From positions 1 through 59,513 of the IMG/VR virus record IMGVR_UViG_3300048014_000052: a DNA stretch of 59,513 nucleotides. One strand, given 5' to 3'. The number at the start of each line of letters is the position of its first letter. Positions within the stretch are counted from its first letter, which is position 1. The stretch is from a virus. Of this stretch, positions 14,769 through 58,360 are shown in pieces. The position numbers and the translations under genes were made by a program. The notes beneath the pieces are model-generated. The model saw nothing but the letters and a program-made list of their open reading frames with translations. It did no database searches and was not told the origin of the DNA.

Positions 14769-14837
14769 ACCCCCTGGCCTTCGGGCCTAACCGCAGCGTC
14801 GTGATGACGCCGCATCCCAAAGATGGAGGCAGGGCCC
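14769..14837 (+). promoter_or_regulatory. leader with GCGTC-GTGAT-GACGC hairpin, copy 1
   Basis: A GGCC-TTCG-GGCC tetraloop hairpin (about 14777-14788) is followed by the conserved CAGCGTCGTGATGACGCCGC. The stem GCGTC/GACGC is at 14796-14800 and 14806-14810. The cement gene follows. The same hairpin precedes the capsid (15330-15344) and tail-tube (18095-18109) genes. Confidence 0.7.
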
Positions 14838-15305
14838 ATGCCCGCGAATTTTGAACGCACCAAGACTATCAGCCGGATCGCGGGCGCCGACTTCACCGGC
14901 TATCCGAGCGCGGGCGAGTACAAGTTCGGGATCACCAATCCCAATGCCATCGCGGCCGGGTCATACACGCCGGCCGACGTGCCGGGCCTCTGGTATGGGT
15001 CTTCCCAGGCGGCTCCCGCCATTCCCGCCGGCAACGTGATCGTCAACCCTACGGCGGGCGCCGACTGCGATTATGTCATCGTAGGCAAGGCGCTTCCGGG
15101 CCAACCCGTGGAATGCTCGGTCGATGGCCGAACCCTGATCACGGTAGGCACGGGCGGTCTCACGGCCGGCCAGGACGTGATGAGCGACGCGAACGGCAAC
15201 GCCGTGGCGTGGACCTCGGGCAACTGGATCCTTGGCACGTGCCTGACCACGGCCAGCGCCGGGTCGATCACCGATATTCTGTTCAACCGCCGGGGCTACC
15301 ATTAA
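14838..15305 (+). CDS. capsid cement/decoration-like protein
   Basis: A 155-aa beta-rich protein starting MPANFERTKTISRIAGADFT. It has the small-cement pattern of repeated short strands with VIVGKALPGQPVECSVDG and AGQDVMSDANGNAVAW, resembling DUF2190-type decoration proteins that sit immediately before the major capsid gene. ATG 14838 is chosen with GGAGG about 9 bases upstream. The in-frame ATG at 14823 overlaps that Shine-Dalgarno. Confidence 0.7.
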   Translation: MPANFERTKTISRIAGADFTGYPSAGEYKFGITNPNAIAAGSYTPADVPGLWYGSSQAAPAIPAGNVIVNPTAGADCDYVIVGKALPGQPVECSVDGRTLITVGTGGLTAGQDVMSDANGNAVAWTSGNWILGTCLTTASAGSITDILFNRRGYH

Positions 15306-15375
15306 GGGCCGCCCTCCAACCCATTAGGAGCGTCGTGATGACGCCCCGTCCTCTTAACGGAAAGGAGTTCCCGGC
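15306..15375 (+). promoter_or_regulatory. leader with GCGTC-GTGAT-GACGC hairpin, copy 2
   Basis: GAGCGTCGTGATGACGCCCC has stem arms at 15330-15334 and 15340-15344 around GTGAT. It is followed by GAAAGGAG before the capsid ATG. It lies in the 70-nt gap between the cement and capsid genes. There is no T-run, so it is not a simple terminator. Confidence 0.7.
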
Positions 15376-16383
15376 ATGCCCGGCAATCCACAACTAAGCG
15401 ACGTCCACGTTAATGGGCCGCTGATCACGATGTCAGTGGCCTACATTCAGGACGAAGCGGGCTTTGTCGCCGACCGGGTATTCGCCAACCTGCCGGTCAT
15501 GAAGCAGTCCGACAGGTATTACACCTATTCGCGGGCTGACTTTAACCGCGACGAGATGGACGAGCGGGCGCCTGGCGCCGAGTCCTCGGGCAATGGCTAC
15601 GATCTCGACAACACGCCGACGTACTTCGCCACGGTCTATGCGTTCCACAAGGATGTGAACGATCAGATCCGGGCCAACAGCGACTCCGTTCTTGCTCCAG
15701 ATCGCGACGCGACGATTTTCTGCACCCAAAAGGCGCTGATCAAGCGCGAGATCACTTGGGCCAATAGGTTCTTTACCACCGGGGTGTGGAACTACGGCGC
15801 GGTCGGGGTGGCGGCGTCGCCTGTGGGCGAGGAATTCCTCCAGTGGGACAACGCCGACTCGACGCCGATCGAAGAAATCCGCTACGCCAAGCGGGTCGTT
15901 CAGCAGGCCACGGGCTTCAAGCCCAATATCGCCGTCATGGGCAAGATCGTCTTTGACACCCTGATCGACCACCCGGAATTCATCGACCGGATCAAGTACA
16001 ACTTCGCTCAGGGCGTGGCCGCCGTGGCCAATGAGCGCATCATGGCGCAGCTCTTCGGTCTCGAAGAGGTGCTCGTCATGGAGGCGGTCTATAACACCGC
16101 GCCCCGCGGGCAACCGGAAAACAGCCAGTTCATCGGGGGCAACAACCTCCTCCTGGCCTATCGGACCAAGACGCCTGGCATGATGGTCCCCTCCTGCGGC
16201 TACACGTTCAGCTGGAACGGCTGGCTGGGCGCCACGGGCATGGGCCACCGGATCAGCAGCTTCCGGATGGAGTGGCTCAAGTCCGACCGGATCGAAATCG
16301 AAATGGCTTATGACCAAAAGGTCGTCGGCGCCGATCTGGGCTTCTTCTTCTCAAACTGCGTCGGCACGATTGAGTCGATCTGA
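15376..16383 (+). CDS. major capsid protein (HK97 fold)
   Basis: A 335-aa capsid subunit. It begins with a short lead containing SDVHVNGPL (residues 8-16), then MSVAYIQDEAGFVADRVFAN and NLPVMKQSDRYYTYSRADF. The middle has IAVMGKIVFDTLIDHPEFIDRIKY and the end RISSFRMEWLKSDRIEIEMAYDQ. These are typical of HK97-fold capsid proteins in phages with Mu F and XkdF genes. A strong AAAGGAG lies before ATG 15376. It is expected to be the most abundant virion protein. Confidence 0.9.
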   Translation: MPGNPQLSDVHVNGPLITMSVAYIQDEAGFVADRVFANLPVMKQSDRYYTYSRADFNRDEMDERAPGAESSGNGYDLDNTPTYFATVYAFHKDVNDQIRANSDSVLAPDRDATIFCTQKALIKREITWANRFFTTGVWNYGAVGVAASPVGEEFLQWDNADSTPIEEIRYAKRVVQQATGFKPNIAVMGKIVFDTLIDHPEFIDRIKYNFAQGVAAVANERIMAQLFGLEEVLVMEAVYNTAPRGQPENSQFIGGNNLLLAYRTKTPGMMVPSCGYTFSWNGWLGATGMGHRISSFRMEWLKSDRIEIEMAYDQKVVGADLGFFFSNCVGTIESI

Positions 16384-16796
16384 TGCGTGAGGTTTTCCGC
16401 GAGCCGTTCGACCCCGGTAAGACCTTCGTGGTCTGCCGGCCCGTGCGGCTTGGCGGAAGGCCTCTAGCGGTCGGCGCTGTATTCCCGCGTGACCGCGTGG
16501 AGCTTCGACGCCTTCGTCAGCTCTACGACTCCCGAATGCTCGGTTACCCGGGCGAGACAGGTCGCCAGCGTGTCAGGCCCACAAGCCCGGTGCGCGTGCG
16601 ACTCGGGGCCGGGAGCGCGGCCGCCATGCCCGTGCCTCCGGTCCCGATCCCGGACGGCTGGCGGGATCTTGAATGGATCCCAATGCAGGTTCTGGCGCGT
16701 AAATTCACCAAGGCTACTGCCCCGACGCGCGAAGAGTGCATTGAGGCCATTGAGACCGAGATCATGAGGCGGGAGCGCCGCCGTGAGCCTGCTTGA
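16383..16796 (+). CDS. hypothetical protein between capsid and connectors
   Basis: A 137-aa protein starting at a TGATG overlap with the capsid stop. The segment VELRRLRQLYDSRMLGYPGE (about 39-58) is a recurring motif in small proteins coded after capsid genes, and DGWRDLEWIPMQVLARKFT is helical. It is possibly a connector accessory. The middle is Pro- and Arg-rich. It overlaps the next gene by 14 nt. Confidence 0.6.
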   Translation: MREVFREPFDPGKTFVVCRPVRLGGRPLAVGAVFPRDRVELRRLRQLYDSRMLGYPGETGRQRVRPTSPVRVRLGAGSAAAMPVPPVPIPDGWRDLEWIPMQVLARKFTKATAPTREECIEAIETEIMRRERRREPA

Positions 16797-17172
16797 TCAG
16801 ATCCCGGCCCAAATCTATGCGGGCTTCCGGGGCAAGCTGAGGCTTGCGACGCTTTGGCGATCAGTCCCATCCATCTCGGCCGGTCTTGATGAGAACGGCG
16901 ACCCCTTGGCGGCCATGATTGAGACCTGGGCCTGCCAGGGTTTCACGGACAAGTACTCGGACTATTTTCGCCTTAAGGGAGATGTCCCTGAGACGGACGC
17001 CAAGGTCTGCATCTTCGGGGCCAGCCTGCCGGTCGGCATCCGACCCCAGAAGGATGACAAAGTGCTGATCGCTGGCCAGTGGTGGCAGATCAGAAACCCT
17101 CAGACCGATCCCGCCGATGCTCTGTGGACCTGCCAGTCCTTCGTCTGCGCCGCCCCAACCCTGCTATCCTGA
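16783..17172 (+). CDS. head-tail joining / head-closure-like protein
   Basis: A 129-aa protein with a conserved neck-protein layout: MSLLDQIPAQIYAGFRGKL, then an all-beta core with FTDKYSDYFRLKGDVPETDAK, VLIAGQWWQIRNPQTDPADA and a terminal beta strand. Head-closure proteins of this size seal the portal after packaging. The GTG start overlaps the previous gene. The stop overlaps the next gene (TGATG). Confidence 0.65.
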   Translation: MSLLDQIPAQIYAGFRGKLRLATLWRSVPSISAGLDENGDPLAAMIETWACQGFTDKYSDYFRLKGDVPETDAKVCIFGASLPVGIRPQKDDKVLIAGQWWQIRNPQTDPADALWTCQSFVCAAPTLLS

Positions 17173-17594
17173 TGGCCGTGACCTGGGATAGCGGCGCTCT
17201 GGAAACCAAGGTGCGTCAGGCCTGTGTGCGGGTGGTCGCCAAGACGGGCGGCGTCATCCTGGAAGAGGGCTCGCGTCTGATCGCTTCGCCGCCCAAGACC
17301 GGTCGCATTTACGAGCGCGACAATCCCCGTCGCATCCACCAAGCCTCCGCTCCCGGTGAGGCGCCGGCAACCGACCTTGGTAAACTGCTGGCGTCTGGCG
17401 AGGTCATCCTGGAGCCACAGACTCCAGACCGCATTTCGGCGCGCGTGAATTGGGGCGCTGAGTACGCGCTGGATCTTGAACTCGGGACCAAGAAAATCGA
17501 ACCACGGCCGTTCGCCAGGCCAGCGCTTGCCCATGCCGAACCGGGTTTCGTCGCCGAGGCCAAGGCCGAGATTGAAGGCGCGGTGCGGGCATGA
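17172..17594 (+). CDS. HK97 gp10-like neck/tail-completion protein
   Basis: A 140-aa protein with an amphipathic N-terminal helix (ALETKVRQACVRVVAKTGGV), a central SPPKTGRIY, and the family mark RPFARPALAHAEPGFVAEA near the C-terminus (the gp10 RPF-x-RPA pattern). It lies in the canonical order head closure, gp10-like, DUF3168-like, tail tube. The start at ATG 17172 overlaps the stop upstream. Confidence 0.8.
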   Translation: MAVTWDSGALETKVRQACVRVVAKTGGVILEEGSRLIASPPKTGRIYERDNPRRIHQASAPGEAPATDLGKLLASGEVILEPQTPDRISARVNWGAEYALDLELGTKKIEPRPFARPALAHAEPGFVAEAKAEIEGAVRA

Positions 17595-18028
17595 ATGACG
17601 TTGATGTCGGGCCCGCGATCCTGGCGGCGCTCCAGAGCAATCCCGCGATCACGGGTCTGTTGTCGATCTGGACGGGCGAGCCCGCGATTTTCAACCGTCG
17701 GCCACCCCCCGACGACGCCGAATATCCGCTGGCGATGATCAGTCCGGATATCAGCATAGGGGATCAGGATTTCCTCAAGACGCGCATCCCGGTCGTGCGG
17801 CGCGATATCACCATCTTTGGCGAACAGCCGGACCAGTATCGAGCGGTCGACACAGCGGCGCGCAAAATCCGCACGCAGTTTCACCGCGTCCGGAGTAGCC
17901 TCGTCGTGGACGGCTTTTCCATCGTCGATATCGTGGTATCGGGACCCCGCGCGGCGCCGGCGGACGATCAGAAACTCGTCGCGCGCGCGTGTCTGCTGAC
18001 GATCAAGCTTCGGGACTTGAGCACATGA
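17591..18028 (+). CDS. DUF3168 / gp17-like tail-completion protein
   Basis: A 145-aa protein with ILAALQSNPAITGLLSIWTG, YPLAMISPDISIGDQDFL, an oligomer-interface strand RRDITIFGEQPDQYRAVDTA and a terminal VARACLLTIKLRD. This is the pattern of the gp17/DUF3168 tail terminator family that caps the tail tube at the neck. ATG 17591 overlaps the previous stop by 4 nt. A 106-nt leader region follows before the tail-tube gene. Confidence 0.75.
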   Translation: MNDVDVGPAILAALQSNPAITGLLSIWTGEPAIFNRRPPPDDAEYPLAMISPDISIGDQDFLKTRIPVVRRDITIFGEQPDQYRAVDTAARKIRTQFHRVRSSLVVDGFSIVDIVVSGPRAAPADDQKLVARACLLTIKLRDLST

Positions 18029-18134
18029 GGCCAATGCCTCACCATGCTGGAAGTTCCATTAGCCCATTCGGGCCTTGGGCAAGCCCGTGTCGCAGCGTCG
18101 TGAGGACGCCGCCATCCCTTGAAGGAGCCTCCCT
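18029..18134 (+). promoter_or_regulatory. leader with GCGTC-GTGAG-GACGC hairpin, copy 3
   Basis: A CGGGC/GCCCG stem-loop (about 18069-18087) is followed by GCAGCGTCGTGAGGACGCCG. The stem arms are at 18095-18099 and 18105-18109. The stem is identical to copies 1 and 2 while the last loop base differs (GTGAG, not GTGAT). GAAGGAG then leads to the tail-tube ATG. Confidence 0.7.
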
Positions 18135-18614
18135 ATGACGGAGCCGGTCGGCAATGTGAACACAGCTGGCGGCGTTGATATCGCCATCGGCACCACGGTC
18201 GTCTGCACGACTTTGGCCCAATATGAGGCCGACACCTACGTCTCCATCGGCGAGGTGGAGGACGGTGGACAGGTCGGCGATGAGGCCGCGTCCGTGCCAT
18301 TTACGTCTCTGGCGAATAGCCGCACCCAGAAATACAAGGGGCCCTATGACGCCGGAACCATGGCCGTTGTGTGCGGCTCCGTCACAAACGACCCGGGCCA
18401 GATCGCCCTTACCGAGGCCGTGGCGACCAAGTTCAATTACAATTTTTGTGTCACCTTGGCGGACCCCGTGACACTCACGGGCGAGCCAACGACGCTTTAC
18501 TTCTCGGCTCAGGTGATGAGCGAACGGCGGAACATCGGCACGGCGTCCAATATCATCAAGCGGACTTTCAACCTCGGGATCAACACGGCGATCACCGAGG
18601 TGGCGCCCACCTAA
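18135..18614 (+). CDS. major tail tube protein
   Basis: A 159-aa protein with the tail-tube layout: GGVDIAIGTTVVCTTLAQYE, SIGEVEDGGQVGDEAASVPF, RTQKYKGPYDAGTMAVVCG, and late beta strands ending FSAQVMSERRNIGTASN. This is the usual gpV/TP901-type two-sheet barrel that stacks as hexamers. It sits before the tail chaperone and tape measure, and behind its own leader hairpin, consistent with high expression. Confidence 0.82.
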   Translation: MTEPVGNVNTAGGVDIAIGTTVVCTTLAQYEADTYVSIGEVEDGGQVGDEAASVPFTSLANSRTQKYKGPYDAGTMAVVCGSVTNDPGQIALTEAVATKFNYNFCVTLADPVTLTGEPTTLYFSAQVMSERRNIGTASNIIKRTFNLGINTAITEVAPT

Positions 18615-41530: not shown

Positions 41531-41539
41531 GGGGTGAGC

Positions 41540-42097
41540 ATGACGTCGATAGTCGAATGGACTGACGCTCTGGTGGCCCACGTCACCAAGGCGTGGAACG
41601 ACGGTTTGAGCGCGGGCGCTATCGCCAGACAGCTGGGCGCGCCGGTCACGCGCAACATGATCCTCGCCAAGGTGCATCGCCTGGGTCTAAGACGCGCCCA
41701 ACCCCGTGTTTTGCAAATCCCCGCGGCTGAAAAGATCGTCGCCAAGACGCCACCCAAACCCAAGTCCGCGCCTGAAACGCCCGCAGAGCGGCCGCCCGAA
41801 AGCATGAAGAGCGCTGGCGGAAAAACGATTCCCCTCGACCGAGCGCCGATCTGCGAGGTCGTCAAGATTGAGTTCGCTCCGACGCACGGCTGCAAGTGGC
41901 CGTCTGGCGACCCAGGCAAGCAAGGATTCTCGTTCTGCGGCGAGCGCGTCCATGTCGGGCCCTCAGCCGGCGGACCCGTGAAGTTTTGGCCCTATTGCCT
42001 GGGCCACTGCCAAATCGCCTATGCGAAGTTCGGCAAAGCGCCAGAGCCCAAGCGAGCCAACGCGCGCGAGAGGGACACCGCGCGGCGCTACGGCTGA
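41540..42097 (+). CDS. gcrA: GcrA-family cell-cycle regulator homologue
   Basis: A 185-aa protein. Residues 7-50 (WTDALVAHVTKAWNDGLSAG, then AIARQLGAPVTRNMILAKVH, ending RLGL) are the GcrA DNA-binding domain. The C-terminus has CKWPSGDPGKQGFSFCG and FWPYCLGHCQIAYAKFG, the sigma-70-interacting end with its cysteines. GcrA in Caulobacter activates transcription at m6A-marked GANTC promoters. Here it may redirect host transcription or read phage DNA methylation. AGGGGG lies 6 bases before ATG 41540. It is the last rightward gene of the block. Confidence 0.85.
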   Translation: MTSIVEWTDALVAHVTKAWNDGLSAGAIARQLGAPVTRNMILAKVHRLGLRRAQPRVLQIPAAEKIVAKTPPKPKSAPETPAERPPESMKSAGGKTIPLDRAPICEVVKIEFAPTHGCKWPSGDPGKQGFSFCGERVHVGPSAGGPVKFWPYCLGHCQIAYAKFGKAPEPKRANARERDTARRYG

Positions 42098-55493: not shown

Positions 55494-56741
55494 TCAAACC
55501 TCCTGATCAAACAGGTCGAGAACCGCTGGCGATGTCGGCGCCCTATCGACCGTAACCTTCACCTCGGTTAGCAGGTGCGCATCTTCCGCGATTCGCTTCC
55601 GGGCGATTTCCGCATACGTCTGGCTCAGTTCAATGAGCGTGCAGTCCAGACCGACCCGATCCGCGACGAGCCCGACCGTGCCCGCGCCGCCGAACGGATC
55701 CAGCACCTTTCCCCCAGGCGGACACCCGGCTCGCAAGCATCGATGCGCAAGTTCGGGCGGAAACGTCGCGAAGTGCGCTTCGCTGAAAGCCTGCGTCCCC
55801 ATTTCCCAGACGGTAAGCGACGCCGGCTCGTAATTGCGCAGGAGTCGACCGTGGCCGGTCGGCGTATCGGCTAGGCCGGTGTGATTCACGTGGCCTTCGT
55901 GGCGCGGGGTGAGATGCGGGGGCGTGCGACCGCGCGCACGATTATTCGGGCCTCCAACCGCTTTCATCGTGCCGTTCGTCTTGGCGCCAGCATTCGCGCG
56001 GTGTGATCCCTCTTGCGCTGCGATGTTCTGCGCCCATCTGGCCTCGCTGGCCTCGCTGGCCTCGCTGGCCTCGCAGCGCACCGAGTTGGCGTCGTAATAG
56101 CTTCCGATCCTGATCCACCGAGCGCCATCCCGGGTGGGATCAGTCGCCAGCGGCGCGCGCTCGGTCAGATCCGGACAGAACGAAAGCTCGCCGGTGTCCC
56201 TGGCGCGCCAGACATCCGCGTCATTGGATTTGGTAAGTAGGAAGATTTTCTCATGGGCGATCGACGGCCGCTGCGTCCCCGAGCTGTCGGGCATGGGGTT
56301 CGTTTTCCCCCAGATAATTTCCGAGCGCACCCACCATCCGTCGTCGCAGAGCGCGATCGCGAGCCGATTGGGAATCATGAGAAGATCCTTCGGCTTAATC
56401 CCACCGCCGACCGTGGAGAACGGCTTATCTCGAAATGTACGGTCATCGTTGCCGAGCGCCTTGGTCGCCGCGGCCGACCGCCCATTCGGCGCCGTGGCGT
56501 AGCAATCGCCATAGTTTAGCCAGCAGCAGCCGGTCGGCTTAAGGACGCGGCGAAGTTCCCGAAAGACCGAGACCATGACGTCGAGATGTTCGCCCAGAGT
56601 CGGCTCAAGGCCGATCTGACCTGCCACGTCGTAGTCGCGAAGTCCCCAATATGGAGGACTCGTCACGATGCAGTCAAAATGATCGTCCGGAAGGCCGCCC
56701 AGCATGGCGCGCACGTCACCAACAAGGATATCAACGGTCAT
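55494..56741 (-). CDS. DNA methyltransferase, N4/N6 class with TSPPY motif
   Basis: A 415-aa amino-methyltransferase. Motif IV TSPPYWGLRDY comes near the start (about 31-41) and motif I DPFGGAGTVGLVADRVG near the end (about 347-363), the beta-class order. The middle has IAHEKIFLLTKSND and a target-recognition-like stretch that includes the SEA tandem repeat. No restriction nuclease is next to it, so it probably protects phage DNA or alters host marking. ATG 56741 overlaps the C5 methyltransferase stop (ATGA). Confidence 0.85.
   Translation of the reverse strand: MTVDILVGDVRAMLGGLPDDHFDCIVTSPPYWGLRDYDVAGQIGLEPTLGEHLDVMVSVFRELRRVLKPTGCCWLNYGDCYATAPNGRSAAATKALGNDDRTFRDKPFSTVGGGIKPKDLLMIPNRLAIALCDDGWWVRSEIIWGKTNPMPDSSGTQRPSIAHEKIFLLTKSNDADVWRARDTGELSFCPDLTERAPLATDPTRDGARWIRIGSYYDANSVRCEASEASEASEARWAQNIAAQEGSHRANAGAKTNGTMKAVGGPNNRARGRTPPHLTPRHEGHVNHTGLADTPTGHGRLLRNYEPASLTVWEMGTQAFSEAHFATFPPELAHRCLRAGCPPGGKVLDPFGGAGTVGLVADRVGLDCTLIELSQTYAEIARKRIAEDAHLLTEVKVTVDRAPTSPAVLDLFDQEV
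56041..56076 (-). repeat. 9-bp tandem repeat inside methyltransferase
   Basis: GCCTCGCTG occurs three times in a row plus one 8/9 copy, coding SEASEASEA on the minus strand. The unit is a multiple of three, so copy changes keep the frame. Confidence 0.9.
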
Positions 56742-58360
56742 GCGCGGCTTTCCTCGTCGGCTCGCATGATCTGTTCGCCGATCCAGCGAATCACGGGAAC
56801 GGCCATGGAATTGCCGAGCTGCTTGTACCGAGCCCCATCGGCCTGCATCAGCCACCACCCGCCGTCCGAATCGCGCTCCCATCGGTCTTCCGCGCGCAGC
56901 TTCGTGATCCGCTTTGATTTGAAATGCCGGATCGGAATGCGCGTAAAGTTGTCTGGGAATCCCTGCAGCCGCTCACACTCAACCAGCAAAAGGCGCCTCA
57001 CCTTGGTCGTCGCGATGAAATCCCGCGTGGATCCGCCACTGGCCGACCGTAGCGCCGAGACGGCGCCATGGGCCTCGGGCATCGCGCCCCCTTCCCTACC
57101 CCGCATGGCGAAGGCAACGGCGTGAGCCGCGCCAGCATCAAGGGTCGGGGCGCACTCCTCAAGCGGGTTAAATCCTGCATCCCGCAGACGCAAATGACCA
57201 TCGGCGTCCACGCTCGGCGTCTTTGCCTCGCCGCTACGCTGCAGGTCGCTTCGCAGCCCGTAGGCGATGGCGGGCGGCACGCCCGCATTGGCATGGCTGT
57301 CGGCGTGGCCGCCGGCCCGTAGCGTCGGCGAGATATCGCCCGCGTCGGCGCCGTCGTCCTTCGACGAAAAGGCGATCACATGGCTGTTCGGATCGGTTGC
57401 CGTGGTCAGCGCGTCCGTGGTGTCGCCGGTTTCCCAGGCGCCGCAGTTTCCGCTCGTCCGGTAGGCTACGGCTGGCGCATGGCCGGCGCTGCCTAAGGCG
57501 TGCGCATTGACGGCCGTGGCGACATCAATGGGCCCCGAGGTATTGTTGCCGCCATACGCGATCATTTCAACGGGCGTGCGCGCGCCCCGTGAGCGCGCGC
57601 TTGCGGCGTCCAGTGTAACCGAGATCAAGTTTTCGGCCGTGTCGGCGTCATTTCGGTATCCGCCGCTGCCTGGAGAGCCCGCTGCAATTAATCGGGCAAG
57701 GTTTTGCCCCGCTTCTCGGCGCGGCGGAGAATGCCAGAGCAGGCGGTGGGGCTGAGAAAATAGCGGTCCGCGACGGGTCCAGTCTCCAAAATCGACGACA
57801 AAGAACACACGCTTGCGTCGCTGTGCCAGTCCCCAGAATTGGGCATCCAGGACGCCCCATTCGACCATCCCTTCCGGGCCGACACAAAACCCGCTGTTTC
57901 GCCAGCCGTTTCGTGGAACGTCAAACTCGGCCCCAACCAGCGCTCCAACCACTGAAGCAAAGTCGCGTCCATGGTGGCTTGAGAAGAGTCCGGGGACATT
58001 TCCGATGACGGCCCACCGAGCTTCGCATCGCTCTCTAGCGACGAAAACAAGTCGCGCTGCGTTAAAGAAGAGACCGGAACGGGTGTTCTCGCCATTGTGC
58101 TTTAGCCCCTTGCGCTTGCCGGCCACGCTGAGATCCTGGCAGGGGAAGCCGCCGATCACGACATCCAGGTGGCCCAGGTCCGCGATTTGCTCGTCCGTGA
58201 TCTTCTCGACGTCGCCAAGGTTCGGGACGTCCGGAAAGTGATGTTTGAGGACCGCAGACGCCGCAGTGTCGATTTCCGCGACGGCCGCGCACTCCCAGCC
58301 GAGCGGCTCCCAAGCCACGCTCGCGGCCTCTATGCCGCTGAACAGCGACAGGAACCGCAT
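56738..58360 (-). CDS. dcm: C5-cytosine methyltransferase (Dcm-like) with altered ENV motif
   Basis: A 540-aa protein with motif I LFSGIEAASVAWEPLGW, motif IV GGFPCQDLSVAG (Cys about 74), motif VIII QRRKRVFFVVD and terminal motif X YKQLGNSMAVPVIRWI. The motif VI site reads WAVIGNVPGLFSS, so the catalytic Glu of ENV is Gly (codon GGA at 58003-58001). A long Gly/Ala/Asp-rich insertion sits in the target-recognition area (about 230-430). The enzyme may be impaired, altered in substrate or regulated. The start at 58360 overlaps the HTH gene stop (TGATG). Confidence 0.85.
   Translation of the reverse strand: MRFLSLFSGIEAASVAWEPLGWECAAVAEIDTAASAVLKHHFPDVPNLGDVEKITDEQIADLGHLDVVIGGFPCQDLSVAGKRKGLKHNGENTRSGLFFNAARLVFVARERCEARWAVIGNVPGLFSSHHGRDFASVVGALVGAEFDVPRNGWRNSGFCVGPEGMVEWGVLDAQFWGLAQRRKRVFFVVDFGDWTRRGPLFSQPHRLLWHSPPRREAGQNLARLIAAGSPGSGGYRNDADTAENLISVTLDAASARSRGARTPVEMIAYGGNNTSGPIDVATAVNAHALGSAGHAPAVAYRTSGNCGAWETGDTTDALTTATDPNSHVIAFSSKDDGADAGDISPTLRAGGHADSHANAGVPPAIAYGLRSDLQRSGEAKTPSVDADGHLRLRDAGFNPLEECAPTLDAGAAHAVAFAMRGREGGAMPEAHGAVSALRSASGGSTRDFIATTKVRRLLLVECERLQGFPDNFTRIPIRHFKSKRITKLRAEDRWERDSDGGWWLMQADGARYKQLGNSMAVPVIRWIGEQIMRADEESRA

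Follow-up and report, generated by a model that had tools for sequence, protein, structure and literature searches.

A covarying ~45-base RNA element ahead of capsid, scaffold and tail genes in unrelated tailed phages

How hundreds of capsid subunits, and few copies of the neighboring proteins, are made from one transcript has been explained in only a few model phages. The leader of T7 gene 10 and similar strong capsid leaders serve the major capsid gene and are confined to single lineages. Other short RNA structures are known from phage operons, including the C(UUCG)G hairpins located in intercistronic gaps of T4 and the boxB (nut) RNAs of lambda and P22, which have a 5-bp stem and a GNRA-like pentaloop. 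Among translational operators, that of gene 43 in T4 and RB69 carries a UAAC loop and subjects a single gene to autogenous repression (PMC3014915).

The DNA analyzed here (the window) is a viral stretch of 59,513 nucleotides, IMG/VR record IMGVR_UViG_3300048014_000052. Three hairpins in this window, located in gaps ahead of the genes for a cement protein, the major capsid protein (MCP) and the major tail protein, are the visible core of a previously uncatalogued RNA element of ~45 bases.

Architecture of the element

Each of the three hairpins is an exact 15-mer in which GCGTC and GACGC enclose a GTGAT loop (first and second copies) or a GTGAG loop (third copy). No further exact copies exist on either strand of the whole window. 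The positions reported by the first-pass annotation of this DNA are exact for these 15-mers, and the 17-mers that it quoted, with the flanking A and C, comprise one base more per side. When up to two mismatches are permitted, the window holds 10 matches versus 1.42 expected, and none of 100 shuffles reaches 10. A covariance model of the element family recovers exactly three copies (E values of 3e-12 to 3e-8). The model was trained on 60 sequences, three of which are the window copies, and the family itself was found independently of the model by exact-pattern scanning. The next-best match is a weak hairpin that has no SD segment and is probably due to chance (Table 1).

The first-pass annotation also described these gaps as rare in an operon of overlapping genes, and the structural genes near the hairpins do mostly overlap or abut. 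Its view that the hairpins are not terminators is likewise borne out. No T-run follows any of the three, which rejects an intrinsic terminator, and the bases that do follow are C-rich and include TCC(C). The A.C mismatch, the lower helix, the TCCC and SD region, and the spread of the element in unrelated phages are additional to what was noted then.

In full, the element has two helices, a lower one of 2 bp and an upper one of 5 bp, separated by an A.C mismatch. A G(N)GA(Y) loop caps the upper helix, and TCCC, an SD sequence and the ATG follow the hairpin. Leaders of the family have in common an [A/C].C mismatch and short lower helix, followed by TCCC, ~4 nt, A-N-GGA(G), a spacer and the start codon. 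The TCC..GGA arrangement is kept in 42 of 52 leaders versus 17.8 in shuffles, and the distance from the element to the start codon is narrowly distributed (about 20–30 nt, mostly 24–28). A subset of leaders has an extra hairpin of variable sequence inserted between CCC and the SD, with both flanks kept. A second conserved hairpin, CTTNGGCAAG, whose loop is NGGC, lies 6–13 nt 5′ of the element in 35 of 155 leaders.

Some leaders have further features. The CTTNGGCAAG hairpin is carried by leaders that include L251 and L518. In Rhodobacter phage RcapNL (L510, 8590), which lacks the main element, the CTTNGGCAAG hairpin precedes the major tail gene. In L080 and L122, tandem hairpin copies 47 nt apart precede one P22-like coat gene. 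In the window, a GGCC-TTCG-GGCC hairpin just 5′ of the first copy is possibly an accessory element, as read from the sequence. The start of the cement gene is probably the ATG listed in Table 1 rather than position 14823, which is given in the mechanical list of open reading frames.

Table 1. Positions of the element copies, the genes that they lead and other relevant features in the window
Feature	Position	Strand	Details
GGCC-TTCG-GGCC hairpin	14776–14787	+	UUCG tetraloop; just 5′ of copy 1; possible accessory element
Copy 1, model match	14791–14838	+	47.2 bits
Copy 1, hairpin	14793–14813	+	lower helix GC(14793–14794)/GC(14812–14813); A14795.C14811 mismatch
Copy 1, upper helix	14796–14810	+	exact 15-mer; GCGTC(14796–14800)/GACGC(14806–14810); loop GTGAT
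Copy 1, 3′ part	14815–14837	+	TCCC 14815–14818; SD GGAGG 14825–14829; spacer to ATG 14838
Led gene 1, cement protein	14838–15305	+	Phage_cement_2 PF09956, 28.8 bits (cut-off 24); start probable
Copy 2, hairpin	15327–15347	+	lower helix GG/CC; A15329.C15345 mismatch; 37.7 bits
Copy 2, upper helix	15330–15344	+	exact 15-mer; 15330–15334/15340–15344; loop GTGAT
Copy 2, 3′ part	15349–15375	+	TCC 15349–15351; GGA 15359–15361; SD AGGAG 15363–15367; ATG 15376
Led gene 2, MCP	15376–16383	+	phrog_1005, 4.5e-85; Phage_cap_E PF03864
CTTGGGCAAG accessory hairpin	18074–18083	+	5′ of copy 3
Copy 3, hairpin	18092–18112	+	lower helix GC/GC; A18094.C18110 mismatch; 53.3 bits, best match in the window
Copy 3, upper helix	18095–18109	+	exact 15-mer; 18095–18099/18105–18109; loop GTGAG
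Copy 3, 3′ part	18115–18134	+	TCCC 18115–18118; SD AAGGAG 18122–18127; spacer to ATG 18135
Led gene 3, major tail protein	18135–18614	+	phrog_158, 6.4e-15
GcrA-like regulator	41534–42097	+	PF07750
DNA methylase-like gene	55497–56885	-	
Next-best model match	57050–57068		15.7 bits; probably chance

Covariation and the conserved loop

The base pairs of the hairpin were examined in an alignment of 60 sequences. All seven pairs exhibit changes on both sides, including the two pairs of the lower helix, which were not used in selecting the sequences. Pairing is maintained in 97.6% of cells versus 74.4% after shuffling, double changes occupy 85 cells versus 18.8, and the covariation value is 0.62 versus 0.18.

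To guard against the bias of searching with a fixed stem, parts of the element were left free in further scans. When the inner two pairs were freed, all 57 of the leader-context matches listed pair fully, using eight combinations that include a T.G wobble, whereas only 13 of the 33 non-leader matches listed do so. Freeing the outer pairs gave GC/GC, CC/GG and AC/GT among the matches listed, as well as a 4-bp version (CC/GC) with the mismatch one position further in. With both the sequence and the length of the loop free (3–8 nt), 89 of the 93 leader-context loops listed are GNGA, GNGAY or GGAY, and none is GNAA. The second loop position is variable, and the G, G and A are conserved. The structure, including the mismatch and lower helix of the hairpin, forms in the RNA, and the covarying stem pairs support the earlier proposal of an RNA element. 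The family has the covarying structure, at a fixed 5′-leader position of a defined gene set, that generally marks a cis-regulatory structured mRNA leader. The conserved loop suggests that some partner specifically recognizes it.

Folding predictions close the hairpin with a mean probability of 0.93. For TCC and the SD, the predicted pairing is weak (mean probability 0.24), and an on/off switch in which TCC sequesters the SD was therefore not adopted. The fold energies of single leaders are not unusual (z-scores of −1.5 to +0.9), and so the case for the element rests on conservation and covariation rather than on stability.

Led genes, carrier phages and hosts

An exact-pattern scan of IMG/VR for GCGTCGTGANGACGCC places the hairpin shortly before an SD and ATG in 53 of the 114 distinct matches listed. 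For a control hairpin of matched composition, 8 of the 106 matches listed are leader-like, none with the TCCC-SD segment. Major head proteins (PHROGs 10/617, 283, 1005, 334, 1328 and 1357) make up about half of the 150 non-redundant products of led genes, and most others with a name are scaffold (3927, 9013, 673), major tail (1407, 158), portal or minor tail proteins, with tallies that overlap between related PHROGs. Among 125 next-gene controls, major head proteins are rare and scattered. This distribution agrees with the original suggestion that the hairpins mark genes for abundant virion proteins. Some led genes (portal, scaffold and small unknown genes) do not encode top-copy products.

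The led MCPs fall into clusters that have no mutual similarity detectable by phmmer. In several genomes the element precedes both the MCP and a tail gene, and 16 carrier phages have one to four model matches each, typically at the MCP and major tail genes. Stems can differ inside one genome: in G004, GCGTC is used before the tail gene and ACGCT before the MCP. Since the element is widespread in unrelated phages and its stems vary yet covary, it matters little that the three window copies are identical. These observations suggest that a short leader moves between unrelated phages or is independently kept there.

The stop codon of the previous gene lies a median of 37 nt upstream (lower quartile 15 nt). 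Because this gene often ends 15–60 nt upstream, most copies are intercistronic, and with the stop so close many gaps are too small for a promoter.

The presence of the stem at the same gaps in close relatives had been set in advance as a test. In the relative whose MCP is 74% identical (L004), all three copies precede the same genes. A relative with 54% MCP identity (L007) has the MCP copy, and its sample-mate (L022) has another. The element is absent from more distant MCP relatives, including RDJL Phi 1, RSP and RHph_Y5A, which indicates that it is dispensable or replaceable.

Most isolated phages with MCP homologs lack the element in the stretches that were read: phiKM1, RcapNL, PAE2, DSL-LC05, P26218, Pam1, Pam5, CBW1004C-Prop1, KLEP18-1, RHph_Y1_10, RHph_TM3_3_14B, AP-16-3, RHph_Y3_1 and vB_LagS-V1. 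Matches found by short blastn in Stenotrophomonas DLP_6, Brevundimonas Strzyga, Variovorax V45v66 and an Asticcacaulis plasmid proved to be a bare hairpin or nothing, with no leader. The one isolated phage found to carry the element is Pseudanabaena phage Pan3, in which it precedes the MCP (46.1 bits). Pan3 is reported to be a cyanobacterial phage (PMC9837993).

Rhizobium phages RHph_TM3_3_14B and RHph_Y3_1 have an MCP ~50% identical to a led MCP. In these same phages a different leader, CACCACCA..CACA-TTTGGAGAC or a close variant, precedes the MCP and major tail genes (L561, 4989 and 8878; L563, 4989 and 8928). This shared leader is perhaps a functional analog of the element.

Pattern scanning across 399 Pseudomonadota genomes yielded three matches, whose letters lack the leader context. 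The covariance model also gave three in 289 Alphaproteobacteria, one of them clearly before a prophage tail gene. Given such low numbers, it is not a common host element. The window encodes a GcrA-like regulator, which four other carriers also have, and a gene resembling DNA methylases, whose family recurs in other carriers. GcrA is an alphaproteobacterial regulator, and the two genes point to an alphaproteobacterial host. GcrA and the clear prophage case indicate that the hosts are probably mainly Alphaproteobacteria, with Pan3 as the reported cyanobacterial case.

Possible functions and relation to known leaders

From the structure, placement and distribution of the element we infer an effect on expression, and specifically a boost to translation. 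We consider the chances about even that it is a cis-acting mRNA leader that makes the translation of high-copy virion proteins from a polycistronic mRNA strong and independent. Such a leader would give chosen cistrons of the late virion transcript their own strong and insulated ribosome entry site. By tying up the RNA on its upstream side, the hairpin would keep that RNA from pairing with the SD. Its G(N)GA(Y) loop and A.C mismatch would be contact points for a component of the host, in the simplest case the 30S ribosome during initiation. This contact would raise initiation at genes that are not translationally coupled to the one before, and protein copy number could be set gene by gene inside one transcript. 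The SD region is computed to be more open than that of control genes (0.47 versus 0.39), a modest difference.

The likely reader of the element can be narrowed by comparing the gene content of its carriers. The 16 carriers have no phage gene in common, and the most widespread family occurs in seven of them, as judged by phmmer, which may miss short or divergent proteins. Together with the non-homology of the led genes, this speaks against autogenous control and against a phage-encoded partner dedicated to the element. Most likely, then, the element is read by the machinery of the host or has no partner. We propose, tentatively and at somewhat less than even odds, a horizontally spread RNA device shared by many unrelated tailed phages, which would bring a host component (the ribosome or else a conserved RNA-binding protein of the host) to the cistrons for capsid, tail and scaffold proteins and would need no phage-encoded partner.

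Several other functions could be served by a hairpin at this location. It might stabilize or process the mRNA, either by blocking exonucleases or by marking a cleavage boundary, and the RNA downstream would then persist longer than the remainder of the transcript. The intercistronic placement, with many copies soon after the previous stop, is consistent with this role, and the upstream CTTNGGCAAG hairpin found in some leaders could bracket a cleavage site. However, the fixed SD and ATG spacing and the coupling to the TCCC-SD segment suit initiation better, the short stem (5+2 bp) is not unusually stable, and a simple exonuclease block needs neither a conserved loop nor a mismatch. We regard this role as the main alternative, though a rather unlikely one.

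A translational operator, on which a host protein or a small phage RNA-binding protein would time or repress synthesis, is improbable. Covarying stem, conserved loop and mismatch are typical of protein-binding hairpins, and the geometry resembles that of the T4 gene 43 operator, whose hairpin lies ~40 nt before the start (PMC3014915). On the other hand, non-homologous led genes exclude a common autogenous repressor, no gene family (within the reach of phmmer noted above) exceeds seven of the 16 carriers, and the SD is more open than average rather than sequestered.

An antitermination or anti-polarity element of the boxB/nut type, or an attenuator acting on elongating RNA polymerase, is suggested by the likeness of a 5-bp stem with a GNRA-like pentaloop to boxB, but we consider it very unlikely. 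The element is positioned immediately ahead of start codons within operons and not close to a promoter, has fixed SD spacing, is common in tetraloop versions and is followed by no T-run, and the carriers share no N-like gene, although short proteins may be missed in that comparison. A DNA-level palindrome bound by a transcription factor or nuclease would explain an inverted repeat that recurs in a genome, but is hardly credible given the compensatory stems (including T.G), the asymmetric conserved loop, the single orientation and the fixed RBS spacing.

If the proposed host-recruiting device is the correct interpretation, it would be a common virion-dosage signal that is recognized without a phage-encoded partner. 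A small RNA element at the virion genes of unrelated phages makes the dosage question directly testable. Its sequence signature also makes it possible to locate capsid, scaffold and tail genes in uncharacterized phages, and it could be put to use as an expression part in alphaproteobacteria.

No Rfam 15 family reaches its gathering threshold in the window, and the best scores for the leader stretches are far below threshold. A search of openly licensed papers by exact sequence and by topic found none on the element. The element may work like known phage mRNA leaders, and the features tested do not support membership in any named family. A CsrA/RsmA site was rejected: A-N-GGA is common at the SD, but most loops are GTGA, GCGA or GAGA and lack GGA. 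Because the led products are unrelated, a single common autogenous ligand of the T4 gp43/gp32 or ssRNA phage coat type is implausible.

The gene 43 operator is alike in having a conserved-loop hairpin tens of nucleotides before the start that acts on translation, as the present element would, but the latter precedes many non-homologous virion genes. About half of the element copies have a GNGAY pentaloop reminiscent of boxB, and the rest have GNGA or GGAY tetraloops. The element further differs from boxB in being located at late-gene start codons, in its TCCC-SD segment and in the lack of any boxA or N that could be found. Like the C(UUCG)G hairpins of T4, it is short and resides in phage operon gaps, but it is distinguished by its GNGA-type loop, A.C mismatch and fixed RBS spacing. 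Finally, the element resembles leaders of the T7 gene 10 type in serving the major capsid gene, but it recurs in unrelated phages.
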